Positions 1,024-12,064 of a DNA stretch of 55,613 nucleotides are shown here, piece by piece (position 1 is the stretch's first letter; each line of letters begins with the position of its first letter). The DNA is from a virus. The stretch spans positions 1 to 55,613 of the IMG/VR virus record IMGVR_UViG_3300042938_000869, one strand, 5' to 3'. The notes under the pieces were generated by a model, which was given only the letters and a program-made list of their open reading frames with translations, ran no database searches and was not told where the DNA came from. The position numbers and the translations under genes were made by a program.

Positions 1024-1233
1024 ATGAACGAACTTTACAAATGGTTTCAGGTTGAGCGCGGTAGGCGCTCCATGCTTGCCGCCCTGCTGGGTCTGAGCCC
1101 CAGCACCATCTCTCACTGGCAGAAACGGGGCGTGGTGCCTTTTTGGCGCGCGGTTGCGATATCGGAAATTACCGGGATTCCGCGCTGGCAACTTAGGCCG
1201 GACATTTACGAGGATCCGGACCGTGGAGCGTAA
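1024..1233 (+). CDS. YdaS/Cro-like helix-turn-helix regulator
   Basis: 69 residues. Residues about 15-50 (MLAALLGLSPSTISHWQKRG followed by VPFWRAVAISEITG) have the look of a Cro/YdaS helix-turn-helix, including the SPSTISHWQ recognition helix and the later helix that contacts the previous one. Good ribosome site GAGGAG before the ATG. First gene of the rightward early operon and facing the leftward operon, the usual place of a phage switch regulator. It is a candidate ligand for the TGTAAA-N5-TTTACA sites, but that is inference. Its last codons overlap the start of the GcrA gene. Confidence 0.75.
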   Translation: MNELYKWFQVERGRRSMLAALLGLSPSTISHWQKRGVVPFWRAVAISEITGIPRWQLRPDIYEDPDRGA

Positions 1234-1762
1234 CAGGGGGCAGACAGAGTGGCTGCCAGAGCAGGTCGATGAACTAAAAAAGCTGTGGCACGAGGGCAAA
1301 AGCGCCACGGTCGTAGCTCAGGAGATGAGTAGAATGTTTGGGCTGAAAATTACCCGAAATGCCATTATTGGCAAAATTCACCGGCTGGTCCACGCTGGCG
1401 TCATGCTCGCCCGTGGGAATAGTCGGCCACAGGAGGCCAAGGATCGTACGAGCCGCCCGCGTCGTCCCAAGGTGCAGGCTCAGGTCACCGCCCCTGCTCC
1501 GGTGGCGAGGCAGACGGCCCCGGTAAAGGTCGCTCCGACAGTGCCCATCAAGGGAAACGTCATTGCCTTTCAGATGAAAGAGAAAAAGACCGGGCCGGGT
1601 CTGCTGGAAGACGTGAGCGGGTGCCTCTATTCCGTTGGTGTCAACGCGAAAAACCAGCACGTGTTTTGCAATGCTGAAAAGCAGGACGGGTCCGCCTACT
1701 GCCCTGATCATCACGCAATGTGCTACCTCCCGACGGCTCCGGTTAAAATTCGGAAAGCATAA
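1223..1762 (+). CDS. gcrA: GcrA-like cell-cycle regulator
   Basis: About 179 residues. The N-terminus (WLPEQVDELKKLWHEGKS, then ITRNAIIGKIHRL) matches the GcrA DNA-binding homeodomain-like region, and the C-terminus has the matching cysteine-containing module (GCLYSVG, FCNAEKQDGSAYCPDHH). In alphaproteobacteria GcrA binds sigma-70 domain 2 and activates promoters carrying CcrM-methylated GANTC sites. A phage copy could steer host sigma-70 holoenzyme to phage promoters or mimic S-phase conditions. The GTG at 1223 was chosen because it has GAGG upstream and overlaps the previous stop; the longer frame from 1154 would sit inside the upstream gene. The central segment, rich in Pro, Ala and Arg, looks like a flexible linker. 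Confidence 0.9.
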   Translation: MERNRGQTEWLPEQVDELKKLWHEGKSATVVAQEMSRMFGLKITRNAIIGKIHRLVHAGVMLARGNSRPQEAKDRTSRPRRPKVQAQVTAPAPVARQTAPVKVAPTVPIKGNVIAFQMKEKKTGPGLLEDVSGCLYSVGVNAKNQHVFCNAEKQDGSAYCPDHHAMCYLPTAPVKIRKA

Positions 1763-1765
1763 GAA

Positions 1766-2206
1766 ATGGCGGGCGTTCTAGTCGGGCGCCGGTCGAAAGA
1801 CCCCACGATCTGCGGCGTGTGCGCTCGAGAGGCGATCACGCTATGCATTTCTGGCCGCTCAAAAAAACTGCAGCCCATGTGGATGTGTGGGCTTTGCTCA
1901 ATCAAACTAGCAATGAAGGTGGCCCACAATATGAGCCCGATCCGTCTGGAAGAGAATGAAGCTAAGGCCCTCGACGAAGCAATTCGCGAGCACATGCAGG
2001 ACATTGTGGCTGCGGTCATGGCTACGCTGTGGGAAAACGACATCAGGGATCTCGACGCCATTACGGCGGAGCGTTTCGCGCCCATGGTAGAGAAGATTTA
2101 CGAAGGCGGCGACTTCAAGAACGCATTGGTTAACACGCTGATCAGCTACAGCAACAAAATGCGTCTCAACCTGACGGTCGAAAAGCCCGATGACGTTCCT
2201 TTTTGA
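1766..2206 (+). CDS. Zinc-finger-like protein of unknown function
   Basis: 146 residues. Two CxxC knuckles near the N-terminus (ICGVCARE and MCGLCSIK) suggest one bound zinc; the rest is acidic and helical. The layout resembles small alphaproteobacterial phage proteins annotated DUF6511, which I could not verify. It follows gcrA by 3 bp and overlaps the extended frame of the primase gene, so it is part of the early replication operon. Confidence 0.75.
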   Translation: MAGVLVGRRSKDPTICGVCAREAITLCISGRSKKLQPMWMCGLCSIKLAMKVAHNMSPIRLEENEAKALDEAIREHMQDIVAAVMATLWENDIRDLDAITAERFAPMVEKIYEGGDFKNALVNTLISYSNKMRLNLTVEKPDDVPF

Positions 2207-2229
2207 TTATGCGCTCTGGAGAGATCGTC

Positions 2230-4569
2230 ATGTTAGCAGCGACAGAGCCTCGCTCGCCTTTCGACGCAGCTTGGCAGCAGCTGGCAGCTAACGGCTACTC
2301 AGTTCTGCCAGTCGCACCAAACAGCAAGGCTCCGTCCGAGTACCGGGCGGGGCATTGGTATCCCATGAAAAAGTGGGAACAGTTTCGAAACGATCCGGCA
2401 AAGCCGTTCGTCGCCAAAATGTGGGCGGCTTGGCCGGACTGCAACATTGGCATTCTCACCGGCACCAAGGCCACGGCCACGCACATGGTTGCGGCGGTGG
2501 ATTACGATACCGATGACCCTGACGTCCTAGCGGACCTTGAGAGCGCCCTACCAGCCTCTCCCGTCAAGAAGAAGGGCCGTCGCGGCTACACTGCCTTCTA
2601 CCTTGTGCCGCTTCGCACCAAGGGGTTCCGCACGGCCATTGTCGAGCTTCTGACAGACACTCGACAGACAGTGATCCCGCCCAGCGTCCACCCCGACACT
2701 GGCCAGCCATACACGTGGATGGGTCCGAGCACCCTGCTCACCACCCCCGCACACAGTTTGCCGGTTCTCACTGATGACGACATCGAGCGCTTCATCGAGC
2801 AGGTCGAGGTGCTGACCAAAAAGCCGGTATCTCCTCCCCCTCATCAGGCGCAGCTGATCCAGCTTCCCGACGACGAGCAGAAATTCTGGCGTGTGCTCAA
2901 CAACACGGCTTACGCCAATCTTGATCGCTGGGTGCCGGATCTGAACCTGCATACGTGCTCGCGCACGTCGACCGGCAGCTACAAGGCTGTGGCGCATTGG
3001 CGGGCATCGAGCACGGGCCGGTCGTTGTCGGAGAGAAGCGCCAACCTCTCGATCATGCCGGGGCAGGGCGCTCGAGATTTTGGGACCGGCGACAGCTACA
3101 CGGCCATCGATCTGACCATGAAGGCCCTCGATCTGCCGCTCGATGACGCCGTGAAATTTTTGACGTCGCGGCTTGGCATGGGGGTTGAGAGGTTTGACGT
3201 GCCCGCCCTGCAGTTCGAGCAGTCAGCCTATCCGGAAATTCCGGTGAGTTCCGAGGAGGTCGCATTCGACCCCGTAACCGGCGAGGTGCTCGAGGAGGCT
3301 GTGAGCGCGGCCCCCATCGCTCTAGATCTGAATTCGTTCGACGAGATCCCTGCCCACTTGCTCCACCCAAGCGGGCTGCTGGGCGAGATCATGGACTGGA
3401 TCGTTGGCGGCTCACGTCGCCCCTCCCGCGCGCTGGCACTTGGCCCGGCCATCGGCGTGGTAGGCACGCTCGTGGGCAATGGCGTGGTCGGTCCGACTGA
3501 TAGCGCGACCCACACCTACATCATCGGCTTGGCGCCGTCGGGGGCGGGCAAGGACTACCCGCTGCAGTGCATCAAGAGGCTTATGGGCGCGGCAAATCTG
3601 AAGCACTTGCTTGGTCCGTCCGAATTCATCAGCATGCCGTCCGTGGTCAATTTTCTCCAGCGTCAGCCGCTGTCGATCTGCGCGATGGACGAAATCGGGG
3701 CGTGGCTCAAGCGCCTGAGCAACAAGAATGCTTCGGGCTATGAGGCATCGATCAGCAAGATCCTCCGCACCATCTGGGGCATCAGCTTTGAGAGCTACCT
3801 CACTCCGGAGTGGGCTCAGCGGGCCAGCACGGAGGTTCAGAACCCAGCGCTCAGCCTATATGGGGTGAGCACCATCGAGGAATTTTATGAGGGTCTGGAA
3901 GGCGGAGACATCCGCAACGGCTTCCTGAACCGCTTCCTCATTTTTTCGACCAGCAAAACAGCGGACGATCAAGACCCACAGCACGGGAGAGACGTTCCCG
4001 ATGATCTGGCTTTGAAGCTGGCAACGCTCAGGAATATGGCCATGCAGCTGAGCCCGTCTGATTTGACGTCGCCTATCGGGGCGCCTCGATCAGCCAAGAA
4101 ACTGGTCTGGAACGGGGGGAGGGGCCCTTGGAACGACCTATCAGCAGAGGTCAAGAAGATCCGTGAGGATAACAGCCGAGACCCCTTTTTCGCCCGTACC
4201 GGGGAGATGGCGGTGCGTCTGGCGACCATCTGCGCGATGGGGTGCGGTCGGCTCGAGGTCCACAAGGAGGACATGCAGTGGGGGCGCGAATTAGCCATGT
4301 GGTCGGCACAGAACATGGAGAACGCCGCCGCTGGATACATGGCCGAAAACGAGAACCAAAAAACGTATAACCGGGTCATCCGGATGATCGAGACGGCGCC
4401 AAACAAGAGCCTGCACCGCCGGATACTGCTGCAGAAATTGCGCGGTGCGGTGAAAGCTCGAGATCTGGAGGAGCTTCTAAAGAGCGCCATCGACAGCGGC
4501 GTGATTGAGGAAACCAAGAAGATCCCCGCTCAGGGCGGAAAGCCGTCCGTAGTGTACCGGGTGATGTAA
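2230..4569 (+). CDS. Bifunctional primase-polymerase / ATPase replication protein
   Basis: About 779 residues. The first 200 residues look like the prim-pol (archaeo-eukaryotic primase) domain: NGYSVLPVAPNSKAP at the start, a NIGILTG strand and the acidic VAAVDYDTDDPD stretch that would bind metal. The C-terminal half carries a P-loop GLAPSGAGKDYPLQ near residue 432 and AMDEIGAWL as Walker B, as in DUF3987-type helicase-like domains. It probably primes and unwinds at the phage origin. I chose the ATG at 2230 because GGAG lies 8 nt upstream; TTG 2203 and ATG 2209 lack a ribosome site. No separate DNA polymerase gene is present in the window. Confidence 0.85.
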   Translation: MLAATEPRSPFDAAWQQLAANGYSVLPVAPNSKAPSEYRAGHWYPMKKWEQFRNDPAKPFVAKMWAAWPDCNIGILTGTKATATHMVAAVDYDTDDPDVLADLESALPASPVKKKGRRGYTAFYLVPLRTKGFRTAIVELLTDTRQTVIPPSVHPDTGQPYTWMGPSTLLTTPAHSLPVLTDDDIERFIEQVEVLTKKPVSPPPHQAQLIQLPDDEQKFWRVLNNTAYANLDRWVPDLNLHTCSRTSTGSYKAVAHWRASSTGRSLSERSANLSIMPGQGARDFGTGDSYTAIDLTMKALDLPLDDAVKFLTSRLGMGVERFDVPALQFEQSAYPEIPVSSEEVAFDPVTGEVLEEAVSAAPIALDLNSFDEIPAHLLHPSGLLGEIMDWIVGGSRRPSRALALGPAIGVVGTLVGNGVVGPTDSATHTYIIGLAPSGAGKDYPLQCIKRLMGAANLKHLLGPSEFISMPSVVNFLQRQPLSICAMDEIGAWLKRLSNKNASGYEASISKILRTIWGISFESYLTPEWAQRASTEVQNPALSLYGVSTIEEFYEGLEGGDIRNGFLNRFLIFSTSKTADDQDPQHGRDVPDDLALKLATLRNMAMQLSPSDLTSPIGAPRSAKKLVWNGGRGPWNDLSAEVKKIREDNSRDPFFARTGEMAVRLATICAMGCGRLEVHKEDMQWGRELAMWSAQNMENAAAGYMAENENQKTYNRVIRMIETAPNKSLHRRILLQKLRGAVKARDLEELLKSAIDSGVIEETKKIPAQGGKPSVVYRVM

Positions 4570-6868: not shown

Positions 6869-7429
6869 ATGAAGAGCAAGACAACCGATTTTATTAGCCG
6901 TTCGTTCAGACAAGACTTCCCGCAGTTTGTGGATCGCGCGACTGCGCTGGGTGTCCGCATCTCGCTGTCGCCCGGCAAACGCAACGGCGCGCCACGGGCC
7001 TACTGGCTTGACGGGTATCGGCAACTAACCGGTTACATTCTCAAGAAGGGCAACCTGCCTTTCACGCACGACGATGCGGTCGCGAATATCGACAAGGCGC
7101 TGACCGAGATCGAGCAAGGCCGCGCCGAAGTCATGAGCATGAATCTCAGCGAAAGATTCGCCGCCGTCATGGCCGAAATGAGAAAGATAACGCCTCAGTA
7201 CCGAATGATCGGCGAGGTGCATTTGCCATCCGGTGACAAAGGACACTGCTTTTTCGTGCAGCCATTCACCGGCGACGTAAATCTGCGCGGTGTTGGCACG
7301 GTTGCGAAAGCAAAGGCCGAATTCAGATCGGGCGAGCACTACGCCGATCAGTTTGCGCGGTTCTGCGACCTGCTTGAAGCGGATTACCAGTTTCGAGCTA
7401 GTGGCCCTGTAGAGGGGAAGACGATATGA
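6869..7429 (+). CDS. Hypothetical phage protein
   Basis: 186 residues, MKSKTTDFISRSFRQDFPQFVDRA...; no family recognised. Ribosome site GGGAGG upstream. The last codons overlap the ATG of a one-helix membrane peptide (ATGA). Larger than its neighbours and evenly mixed alpha/beta in composition. Confidence 0.7.
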   Translation: MKSKTTDFISRSFRQDFPQFVDRATALGVRISLSPGKRNGAPRAYWLDGYRQLTGYILKKGNLPFTHDDAVANIDKALTEIEQGRAEVMSMNLSERFAAVMAEMRKITPQYRMIGEVHLPSGDKGHCFFVQPFTGDVNLRGVGTVAKAKAEFRSGEHYADQFARFCDLLEADYQFRASGPVEGKTI

Positions 7430-7530
7430 AGCTCTGGCACTCAGGCGACCTGAGCGACCTCGCCATCTACCTCATCGGCATGGCCTGCGTTGGCGCGGTC
7501 CTGCTGGCTATAGCGATAGGTGCAGTATGA
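7426..7530 (+). CDS. Single-pass membrane micropeptide
   Basis: 34 residues, MKLWHSGDLSDLAIYLIG..., with one long hydrophobic stretch (about residues 12-34) that reads as a transmembrane helix. ATGA overlaps at both ends (7426-7429 and 7527-7530) make a coupled translation unit and support a real gene. Possible roles include inner-membrane remodelling or superinfection exclusion; none can be shown here. Confidence 0.6.
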   Translation: MKLWHSGDLSDLAIYLIGMACVGAVLLAIAIGAV

Positions 7531-7796
7531 CCACACCCCCGCCATACCGCACCCCATGCTCAAGCCCGTTCGACGCGGTCCAAACCGTATTCGCCAAAGC
7601 CGAGCGGCTGGGAATGTCCGTGGAGGACGTTTCCACGCGGTCAGGCTATAGCGCGGACACGGTGCACAACATGCGCCGCCCACGGACAAGCCGCGCGAAC
7701 GGGAGCGGCCTAAACCCATCACTGCGGATGGTAATCGACATGGCTGAGGTCGTCGGGCTGAAGATTGTCGCGGTTCCGATTGAGGAGAAAAAATGA
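7527..7796 (+). CDS. HTH (XRE-like) DNA-binding protein A
   Basis: 89 residues. VFAKAERLGMSVEDVSTRSGYSADTVHNM looks like a helix-turn-helix and is followed by a helix (PSLRMVIDMAEVVGL). It aligns by eye with the protein at 9322 (same spacing of the ERL, S-G and A/S-D/S-T residues and of the final LAE/MAE helix), so the two are probably paralogues. Coupled by ATGA to both neighbours. Confidence 0.7.
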   Translation: MTTPPPYRTPCSSPFDAVQTVFAKAERLGMSVEDVSTRSGYSADTVHNMRRPRTSRANGSGLNPSLRMVIDMAEVVGLKIVAVPIEEKK

Positions 7797-7990
7797 ACCA
7801 CCCCAACCCCGGCAGCGATGAGGCCGTCGCGCGCGGCTGCAGGTGCCCAGTCATCGATAACGGGCGCGGTCGCGGCTACATGGGGCAACCCGATATTTTT
7901 GTGTTGTCCGCCGACTGTCCGCTGCATTGGCCGCCAAAAGAAAAAGAACCGAAGACTAAAACCATCGACCGAAAAGGAAAAAAGACATGA
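7793..7990 (+). CDS. Small cysteine-containing phage protein
   Basis: 65 residues, MNHPNPGSDEAVARGCRCPVIDN... with a CRCP knuckle and a later DCPLH. This is the common phage and prophage family with GCxCPV-N-GRG-YMG and a terminal C-P-H; its function is not known. The basic, Lys-rich tail is probably disordered. ATGA coupling on both sides. Confidence 0.75.
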   Translation: MNHPNPGSDEAVARGCRCPVIDNGRGRGYMGQPDIFVLSADCPLHWPPKEKEPKTKTIDRKGKKT

Positions 7991-8331
7991 ACACCAAGAA
8001 GCCGACCACCACAATCAGCAAGACGACTACCGGCGTCACCGAGTTCGTCGAACACTCGACCGACGTGCAACTCGCCCCCATGCCCTCGAGCGTCCGCCCC
8101 TACATCCTCGAGAGTTCCGAGTTCGACGCCTTCCTCTACTCCAAGCGGTCCGCCGCCATGCGCGAGATCGAGGATGTCGACGCCGAGATCTCACGCCTCC
8201 AGACCGAGATCGACGCCCGCCTCGACCGCCGACAAGACTTGATGGCAATCGTCATCCGCGTCGAAACAGCGCTCAATACGACGCCCACTCGCCCGGCGCC
8301 GCAGTTGACCGAGCGGGGGCAGGGGAATTGA
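7987..8331 (+). CDS. Coiled-coil protein, unknown
   Basis: 114 residues; the middle (AMREIEDVDAEISRLQTEIDAR and onward) is a clear heptad-type coiled coil, flanked by Thr-rich and Pro-rich ends. Good ribosome site AAAAGGAAAAAAG. No enzymatic motif. Start overlaps the preceding TGA. Confidence 0.7.
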   Translation: MNTKKPTTTISKTTTGVTEFVEHSTDVQLAPMPSSVRPYILESSEFDAFLYSKRSAAMREIEDVDAEISRLQTEIDARLDRRQDLMAIVIRVETALNTTPTRPAPQLTERGQGN

Positions 8332-8576
8332 GCGCCGAGAGCAAGCCGTTAGTCATGCCCGATCTCTACGCCTCCCCTCAGCCTGAAGCCTATGGGGTGA
8401 GGGCGGAAATCGAAGCGTTGCTTGACGCCTACGATGCCGAGACGACTGCACTGCCCTTGGGCCACGAAATGCCGACGCGCGGGTCGTCCACCTACAATTG
8501 GCGCCGGGCGATTGTTGAAGACCTTCGCAAGCTAGCCGCCCTATCCCACACCGAACAGGGGGAGCCCACCCCATGA
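8328..8576 (+). CDS. Small protein, unknown, probable TTG start
   Basis: About 82 residues. A TTG at 8328 overlaps the TGA of the upstream gene and follows GGGGCAGGGGAA, a good ribosome site; the first ATG (8355) would leave out nine codons. The product is acidic and helical (YGVRAEIEALLDAYDAETT, then a W-containing segment). The GTG/TTG overlap style is the same as at 9839, 13967 and 12061. Confidence 0.6.
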   Translation: MSAESKPLVMPDLYASPQPEAYGVRAEIEALLDAYDAETTALPLGHEMPTRGSSTYNWRRAIVEDLRKLAALSHTEQGEPTP

Positions 8577-9325
8577 CCCAATCCAGTACCGATAGCTCAC
8601 TGGTGGAGAGACTTCGAAAGGGGACTGCCTACTTTTGGCCAGACACCAGCATCACCGACTTTTCGTCACTCATGTCCGAAGCCGCCTCGCGCATCTCCAC
8701 CCTTGAGCGTGAACTGGAGGAGGCGAGGGCGGAACCACCCGTGACTGATATCAAGGAGCTTGCGGCTCGGATGCAGCAGACGCTTGACCACGCGCAGGCC
8801 ACAGGCCCAAACCCGACTTCGCAGCGGGCGCTTGAGTATCGCCTAGCTCAAGCTATCAATGCCCTCGCCTCCACTCCCTCCCCCGCACCAGCGGAAAGCG
8901 GGGCGGTGGCGTGGTACTGGTGGCACAATCCGCTTGATCAGGCGCCGAGTTGGTGGTGGGGCGAGAAACGCCCAGATCACGCCCCCGCACGCGCAAAGCC
9001 CCTCTACGACCACCCAGCCCCATCTGCTTCTATGGGGAGGGTGACGGTCAAGGCGTTGGAGTGGGAGGCTTACGGGGGCAGGTGGCGCGCTTCCTCGCCC
9101 GGCATCACGGTTCTGAAGTACATCGTCAACCCTGACAAGGCGGGGGGCTTCTATGTGTCGGTCAACGGTCAACCCCTAACCAGCAAGTACGCCACGACTG
9201 ATGCCGCGAAGGCAGCAGCCCAATCCCATTTTGCCGCCGCTATTTTTGCCGCCCTTGACTCCCCTCCCATCAAAGCGGGGGAGGCTGTGCCAGCCCGCTC
9301 CGCCGACCGGGAGGGCGGGGAATGA
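8573..9325 (+). CDS. Hypothetical phage protein with C-terminal VKALEWE domain
   Basis: 250 residues. An N-terminal helical part with a coiled-coil segment (ISTLERELEEARAE), a Trp-rich linker, then a C-terminal module VTVKALEWEAYGGRWRA...GGFYVSVNGQPL...ATTDAAKAAAQSHF. That module is common as a repeat in alphaproteobacterial phages and prophages; its function is unknown. Overlaps both neighbours by four bases. Confidence 0.7.
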   Translation: MTQSSTDSSLVERLRKGTAYFWPDTSITDFSSLMSEAASRISTLERELEEARAEPPVTDIKELAARMQQTLDHAQATGPNPTSQRALEYRLAQAINALASTPSPAPAESGAVAWYWWHNPLDQAPSWWWGEKRPDHAPARAKPLYDHPAPSASMGRVTVKALEWEAYGGRWRASSPGITVLKYIVNPDKAGGFYVSVNGQPLTSKYATTDAAKAAAQSHFAAAIFAALDSPPIKAGEAVPARSADREGGE

Positions 9326-11121: not shown

Positions 11122-11166
11122 GAGCTTTTTGATGGCCCGAAAACGAGCTATTCGACCTAAAAATCA

Positions 11167-11188
11167 GGGGCCATTTGGCCCCTTTTTT
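11167..11188 (+). terminator. Rho-independent terminator of the early operon
   Basis: GGGGCC-ATTT-GGCCCC followed by TTTTTT. A second, outer pair GCCCGAAAACG (11135-11145) and CGTTTTTCGGGC (11190-11201) encloses it, giving a nested structure. It closes the rightward early operon. Confidence 0.85.
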
Positions 11189-11213
11189 ACGTTTTTCGGG
11201 CACTGACCTCGGG

Positions 11214-11455
11214 ATCGATGTTAGCAGAGGGTCGGAGGGGCAAAAGTGCCAATGTTAGTGCTAACATCGATCAAAGTTTACGGGGGGTCTGCTAACACCG
11301 CTGGAAGGCCTAAACCCTTGTAAAATAAGGTATATATATATGATGATATATCATTGTTATCAATGTTTACTCTATCTCTATGTCTTCAAATAAAAGGGTT
11401 TTAATAGGGGCCTTAGAAGAGAGGGGCTAACATCGCTAACATTGCTAACATCGAT
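11214..11455 (+). repeat. Iteron-like CTAACA repeat array around an AT-rich segment (candidate origin or packaging site)
   Basis: Seven copies of a CTAACA-core repeat. Minus orientation: 11214-11225 (ATCGATGTTAGC) and 11252-11258. Plus orientation: 11260-11271 (GCTAACATCGAT), 11291-11300, and three in tandem at 11426-11434, 11435-11443 and 11444-11455 with a 9-bp period. Copies two and three form TGTTAG-TG-CTAACA. Between the groups, 11318-11402 is very AT-rich and contains TGTAAAATAA (11319-11328), the palindrome ATGATATATCAT (11343-11354) and CATTG-TTAT-CAATG (11352-11365). No coding sequence is seen from 11122 to 11548. Repeats beside an unwinding-prone stretch are the classic plan of an iteron origin; the position right before terS would equally suit a TerS binding site. 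Confidence 0.7.
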
Positions 11456-11548
11456 CTCGCCAAAAAGGGGGTGGTGCAGGGCACGGCGAGAGGGGGGTGC
11501 ATTGGGTGACCCGGCGCGCTATATTCGGGGCAACAAAGGAGGCCGATT

Positions 11549-12064
11549 ATGACCCCACGGAAGAAGCCGGAAGATCGCCTGCCGCTCGGTCGACCGTCGG
11601 ACTACAGGCCCGAGTTTTGCGAGACGGCCATTGCAATGGGCCAGAATGGCGCGTCAAAGGTCGACATCGCCGATGCGCTCGACACCACTGTAAAAACTAT
11701 TTACAATTGGATGGCGCAGTATCCAGATTTTCTACGCGCTATGGAACGTGCCGAGCAGAAAGCTGAGGTCTGGTGGGCAGAGCAGGGCAAGAAAGCTTTG
11801 TGGACGCCGGGCTTCAATTCGTCGGTTTGGTCCCGCTCGATGGCTGCCCGTTTTCCGAGGTCGTGGCGCGAGAACAAAAACGTGGAACTCAGCGGCAAGG
11901 ATGGCGCGCCTATCGAGATGGACGTCACCACGACGCTGAACATCGACCAGCTGTCGACGCGTGCGCTGGAGGCCCTCGAGGAGGCGCTGGAGATCATCGC
12001 TGCGGGCGATGAGATCGACGAGGTGGAGGAAGACGACGATGATGAGGGGGGTAGCCTGCAGTGA
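11549..12064 (+). CDS. terS: Terminase small subunit
   Basis: 171 residues. GRPSDYRPEFCETAIAMGQNG then IADALDTTVKTIYNWMAQYP is the N-terminal helix-turn-helix of this family; AEVWWAEQGKKAL begins the oligomerisation region; the tail is strongly acidic (DEIDEVEEDDDDEGG). It recognises the packaging site and feeds DNA to TerL. Ribosome site AAAGGAGG is strong. Unusually it is separated from terL by five genes. A perfect TGTAAA-N5-TTTACA palindrome lies inside the HTH codons. Confidence 0.85.
   Translation: MTPRKKPEDRLPLGRPSDYRPEFCETAIAMGQNGASKVDIADALDTTVKTIYNWMAQYPDFLRAMERAEQKAEVWWAEQGKKALWTPGFNSSVWSRSMAARFPRSWRENKNVELSGKDGAPIEMDVTTTLNIDQLSTRALEALEEALEIIAAGDEIDEVEEDDDDEGGSLQ
11689..11705. promoter_or_regulatory. 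Palindrome of the operator family inside terS
   Basis: TGTAAA-AACTA-TTTACA, the same 6-5-6 arms as O4 (6153-6169), here within codons for TVKTIYNW of TerS. May be chance codon choice, an operator for late repression, or a TerS/pac contact point. Confidence 0.3.

Follow-up and report, generated by a model that had tools for sequence, protein, structure and literature searches.

Our analysis of the window, the whole 55,613-nucleotide stretch of viral DNA considered here, identified positions 11213-11455 as very probably a replication origin, whose iterons would be read by the winged helix of the prim-pol/DUF3987 protein encoded at 2203-4569. The array, its conservation, the winged-helix model, the link between helicase gene and array and the covariation of the repeat word were computed directly. 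The first-pass annotation had described the segment as a candidate origin or pac site; the comparative evidence favoured an origin read by the prim-pol/ATPase, and the alternative of packaging through TerS was not sustained. In the proposed mechanism, for which a self-loading initiator is the parsimonious reading, the C-terminal winged helix would bind CTAACA iterons to either side of the AT-rich segment and the MCM-like AAA+ domain would assemble as rings at the array. These rings would melt the 85-bp AT-rich segment and unwind outward, and the N-terminal prim-pol domain would prime.

The repeat array and its genome

The window is an IMG/VR virus record classed as linear. Five relatives (L024-L028) run from its last base via approximately 21 bases into its first base, and we therefore interpret it as an almost complete genome of about 55.6 kb, circularly connected and cut at a single place. 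It carries terS and TerL as well as a large late region that includes a portal-sized gene and a tail fibre, and since it encodes its own virion genes it represents a phage rather than a PICI satellite; a nucleotide search of cultured phages with the window gave no match. The GcrA cell-cycle regulator homologue suggests an alphaproteobacterial host. The prim-pol protein matched Pfam Prim-Pol (PF09250; E 1.3e-18) and phrog_3022 (E 1.7e-68), together with a DUF3987 match (E 7e-6) that falls under Pfam's own cut-off.

Table 1. Positions in the window of the array components and of the genes discussed with them.
Feature	Position	Strand	Evidence or remark
YdaS/CI-like repressor	1024-1233		
GcrA cell-cycle regulator homologue	1154-1762		Pfam E 1.8e-21; overlaps the YdaS/CI-like repressor gene
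Prim-pol + DUF3987 primase-helicase, 788 aa, predicted initiator	2203..4569	+	Pfam, PHROG, AlphaFold2
C-terminal winged helix, about residues 718-788, predicted iteron reader	4354..4566	+	Model and word covariation
Intrinsic terminator, closes the early transcription unit	11166..11183	+	7-pair stem and T-run
Iteron 1, GCTAACATCG	11216..11225	-	
Iteron 2, ACTAACATTG	11250..11259	-	With iteron 3 makes the near-palindrome ATGTTAGTGCTAACAT
Iteron 3, GCTAACATCG	11260..11269	+	
Iteron 4, GCTAACACCG	11291..11300	+	
AT-rich segment, predicted DNA-unwinding element	11318..11402	.	Lowest-GC 80-mers; similar AT-rich stretch between the iteron sets of relatives
Two degenerate iterons, GTAAACATTG and GATAACAATG	11352..11370	-	9-bp spacing; each 3 mismatches to GCTAACATCG
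Iterons 5-7, GCTAACATCG-CTAACATTG-CTAACATCG	11426..11453	+	9-bp period
terS, first late gene, adjoins the putative origin; not thought to be the array reader	11549..12064	+	phrog_309 E 7.9e-24

The layout agreed with the first-pass annotation, which had noted seven CTAACA-core repeats in both orientations, three of them tandem at 9 bp, flanking an AT-rich stretch of about 85 bp just before terS (Table 1); its start at 11122 corresponds to the end of the upstream ORF. The minus strand carries two cores (11219, 11253) and the plus strand the other five (11261, 11292, 11427, 11436, 11445), of which the last three have the 9-bp period, and the whole array is situated between the terminator and terS. 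Six of the seven copies read GCTAACA, a word that occurs 10 times in the whole window against 3.7 expected, its other copies being solitary and dispersed, and exact GCTAACATCG occurs four times within the array and once in the rest of the window. CTAACA forms the densest 6-mer cluster in the whole window (7 per 250 bp), and in 40 local Markov randomisations no 6-mer formed a cluster larger than 6. The segment that separates the iteron groups has an AT content of 78%, and the lowest-GC 80-mers in the 55.6 kb begin at 11316 (GC 0.225). No DnaA boxes (TTATNCACA) were found in 11190-11548 with up to two mismatches allowed.

The repeats, whose absence from close relatives had been named beforehand as a refuting observation, were kept in those relatives. 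L008 and L011 showed no change at any of the 42 core bases, compared with 83% identity for the bases between iterons (101/121 vs L008), and the base after the core was altered in step over several copies (ACATCG to ACACCG; ACATTG to ACAGTG or ACACTG), with T-to-C changes in the degenerate pair of the AT-rich segment that parallel those of the full iterons. Some iteron copies have decayed in L006 and L007. At a greater distance, L028 and L223, with prim-pols 56% identical, possess a ACTAACACT-type array in the same pre-terS gap, with six exact CTAACA cores each and flanks otherwise unlike those of the window, and L222, the sister of L223, retained degraded copies only. Within the clade of the window the array and the prim-pol gene are 3.3 to 6.7 kb apart, a separation that probably arose through insertion of small accessory genes. 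The distance in the window, 6.65 kb, is unlike that of most relatives and counts against the origin reading. A GC-skew check suggested by the first-pass annotation lent weak support: the minimum falls at 10.77 kb, close to the array, but third-codon-position skew has no clean switch, and for that reason GC skew was not taken as proof of an origin.

Arrays behind DUF3987 helicase genes

A profile search for prim-pol/DUF3987 proteins gave 42 loci, followed by 80 viral and 30 bacterial-genome loci, from which 143 usable proteins and 93 representatives were obtained. Array detection relied on exact 6-mers, by which diverged arrays are missed, and many contigs were cut. Among the 93 representatives, 18 of 24 strong two-orientation non-coding arrays fell within -150..+1000 bp of the helicase stop codon in comparison to 2.1 expected, and at a looser threshold 27 of 56 did so (4.8 expected), where both expectations presume uniform placement. 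With these thresholds an array near the gene was lacking in approximately two thirds of the representatives, in part as a result of cut contigs. Many relatives nevertheless have a two-orientation array that immediately follows the helicase gene and surrounds a TATATA-rich stretch, as seen on direct reading of L232-L244. The words of these relatives differ from that of the window (CAGGTTC, CGTGACA, GACAAAC, CCTAAAA, GGGACAACC) and likewise flank an AT-rich stretch by the helicase gene; in those cases where the large gene that follows could be identified, it was often antiterminator-like (phrog_6386) and not terS. Prim-pol/DUF3987 relatives 42-49% identical to the query were also found in Pleomorphomonas, Methylobacterium and other Rhizobiales genomes (L340-L346), and these loci are probably prophages.

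Of five cultured phages examined, three have such an array, in both orientations and next to AT-rich DNA, immediately after the primase-helicase gene, namely Rhizobium phage RHph_TM3_3_14B (ATTCCA, 8 copies), Pseudomonas phage Baskent_P4_1 (ATCCCC/GGGGAT, 9 copies) and Achromobacter phage Axy19 (CCGAAA, 11 copies), and Sinorhizobium NV1.1.1 and Pseudoalteromonas H40/1 had no array behind the primase gene.

From 69 window- and locus-derived sequences, AlphaFold2 gave a model of residues 372-788 with pLDDT 93 and pTM 0.90, in which the last 70 residues (model residues 346-416) form a helix-strand-helix-helix-strand-strand winged helix. The best PDB structure matches were MCM helicases (E down to 4.9e-7; TM-scores 0.36-0.48), by which the modelled AAA+ core is MCM-like, a distant AAA+ resemblance. 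Sequence profiles gave weak matches to MCM3 and, for the last domain, to the RPA32 winged helix.

Repeat word, winged helix and rival readings

The iteron word was extracted automatically as a matrix from 33 arrays and compared with the two parts of the helicase. A partial Mantel test associated word with winged helix given the core (r=0.42, p=0.0002), and word with core given the winged helix gave no association (r=-0.14, p=0.97). Because kinship among sequences can inflate Mantel significance, restricted runs are also given, and the winged-helix result persisted when the comparison was limited to strong arrays, to cores <60% identical or to winged helices <55% identical. Individual pairs showed the same tendency: L241 and L234 share the word CGTGACA with cores 48% and winged helices 53% identical, and L234 and L232 have different words with cores 74% and winged helices 47% identical. 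The word CAGGTTC is common to L233 and L244, where BLAST detected no similarity between the terminase-region proteins and the arrays lie 20 bp and 1.7 kb from the gene. As judged from these sequence comparisons, the repeat word follows winged-helix similarity and not the helicase core. A natural near-swap of the reader domain was observed between L234 and L235, with cores 98% and winged helices 79% identical and slightly different words.

CTAACA with 9-bp spacing in both orientations was also found in unrelated phages of 30-69% GC. Such arrays lie beside AAA_25 helicases (L043 group, L045), a DUF927 + Cch-HTH helicase (L042, L084), a DUF3854/DUF5906 helicase (L052) and another prim-pol (L037), as well as upstream of terminase genes (L030, L048, L051, L098). 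In the one comparison made, the winged helix of the window showed no detectable homology to that of the AAA_25 helicases flanking CTAACA arrays (hhalign probability 0.8%). At least two opposite copies were present at 24 of 72 loci, compared with 4 of 80 for a reversed control motif, and 35 of 72 loci were non-coding compared with 19 of 80. Raw counts of CTAACANNNCTAACANNNCTAACA in viral contigs were rejected as evidence, since the reversed motif was even commoner, its matches being mostly coding repeats, and only orientation and coding status separated the two sets. The recurrence of CTAACA may reflect a convergent or an exchanged origin word. Three further observations were made in this survey: L089, among other loci, carries a CTAACA/TGTTAG array of the same spacing in both orientations, L054 has nine CTAACA repeats inside a 488-aa ORF (7425-8891) with no Pfam/PHROG match, an in-gene placement that recalls the lambda O iterons, and the control motif ACAATC/GATTGT forms non-coding two-orientation arrays in L133 and L163 that are possibly other origins.

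The placement directly upstream of terS would also suit a packaging site (pac or cosB) bound by TerS, a reading that we consider unlikely. In the lambda cos region R sites lie around a bend, and the array resembles lambda cosB/pac in having repeats around an AT-rich part upstream of terS; TerS is also common, at about 40% identity, to the CTAACA-bearing L028, L222 and L223, and circularly connected relatives are compatible with pac or cos. However, TerS homologues of 33-41% identity lack a comparable array upstream, the array follows the helicase gene in most DUF3987 relatives, often with phrog_6386 as the next large gene, one repeat word is found with terminases (TerS/TerL) that have no detectable similarity, and CTAACA arrays lie by replication genes with no terS nearby in L037, L042 and L052. 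The distribution of window-type arrays differs from lambda cosB/pac in that it tracks the helicase and not TerS.

A late-gene operator or promoter bound by the YdaS/CI-like repressor, the GcrA homologue or another HTH protein would leave both the helicase-gene link and the winged-helix link unexplained, and is in our judgement very unlikely. The DNA-binding proteins common to CTAACA-bearing phages are the prim-pol, the YdaS-like repressor, the GcrA homologue and TerS, and do not include the other early HTH proteins (7527, 9322) or p10870; that the YdaS-like protein, the GcrA-like protein and TerS share this distribution counts against the prim-pol as reader. The near-palindrome ATGTTAGTGCTAACAT and a location between the early terminator and the late genes also fit an operator, but no second array was found near the repressor's own promoter region, other GCTAACA copies being single, GANTC, the GcrA/CcrM site, does not occur in 11190-11548, and no sigma-70-like promoter was found. 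A promoter may lie inside the putative origin. That the array arose by chance or by a simple functionless repeat expansion appears extremely improbable: randomised sequence does yield 6-mer clusters of up to 6 per 250 bp, and coding DNA of viral contigs commonly contains tandem 9-bp repeats, but the array exceeds the randomisations, has both orientations, and is retained at 56% prim-pol identity, and its conserved cores among diverged spacers contradict this reading.

Known initiators and implications

The predicted arrangement of a helicase initiator that reads its own iterons has several counterparts. SaPI Rep helicases use a C-terminal domain to recognise iterons that lie immediately behind their gene (PMC7581432), and in PICI origins an AT-rich region is always enclosed by two sets of iterons (PMC6092414). 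The window array likewise has short iterons in two sets around a putative AT-rich melting site, and its predicted initiator is a helicase with a modelled C-terminal winged helix as the candidate reader. The differences are that DUF3987 is fused to a prim-pol, in contrast to the DUF927 or Primase_Cterm of Rep, that the host element is a tailed phage, and that the array lies 6.65 kb away instead of directly downstream, although 18 of 24 strong-array relatives fall within range. The array would work like the PICI/SaPI type, yet it is not classified as a PICI origin because of this distance.

In the P4 alpha protein a primase and a helicase are joined to a C-terminal winged helix, which recognises the repeats of the origin (PMC4234260). 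The window protein resembles it in uniting a primase, a helicase and a predicted winged helix in a single chain, but the P4 primase is of the Toprim type, in comparison to Prim-Pol (PF09250) in the window, and the helicase family differs. The P4 origin has a two-part ori/crr layout, which was not seen in the window. SCCmec Cch/Cch2 are self-loading MCM- or D5-like helicases that bind repeats downstream of their gene (PMC7581432), differing in that the primase is a separate protein and the helicases belong to other families; one CTAACA-array phage (L042/L084) does have a DUF927 + Cch-HTH helicase. The pRN1 ORF904 protein unites an archaeo-eukaryotic prim-pol, a helicase and a winged helix with an origin downstream of the gene (PMC4234260), but that origin is a stem-loop without iterons. 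The NrS-1 phage polymerase is similar as a multidomain prim-pol phage replicase, and its HBD domain was matched by the array-bearing cultured relatives Axy19 and Baskent_P4_1 and not by the window protein.

DUF3987 is a predicted mobile-element helicase (PMC5862659), no DUF3987 origin was described in the literature that we found, and a literature search for TGTTAG/CTAACA iterons gave nothing relevant. What is new here is the helicase family (DUF3987) together with a putative origin that borders on terS, 6.6 kb away from the helicase gene. We are evenly divided on a broader proposal, that DUF3987 prim-pol helicases possess a modular, evolvable origin-reading code in which a swap or divergence of the winged helix rewrites the word while core and layout are kept, and that the recurrence of CTAACA at 9 bp with unrelated helicases reflects repeated convergence or exchange of reader domains. 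For the family, dozens of candidate origins are now available for which target words and a reader domain are named, among them those of cultured Pseudomonas, Achromobacter and Rhizobium phages, such that binding, loading and reader-word specificity become directly testable and a route is provided to origins in uncultured phages. If such a code is true, the origin of an uncultured phage could be located, and its reader named, from sequence.
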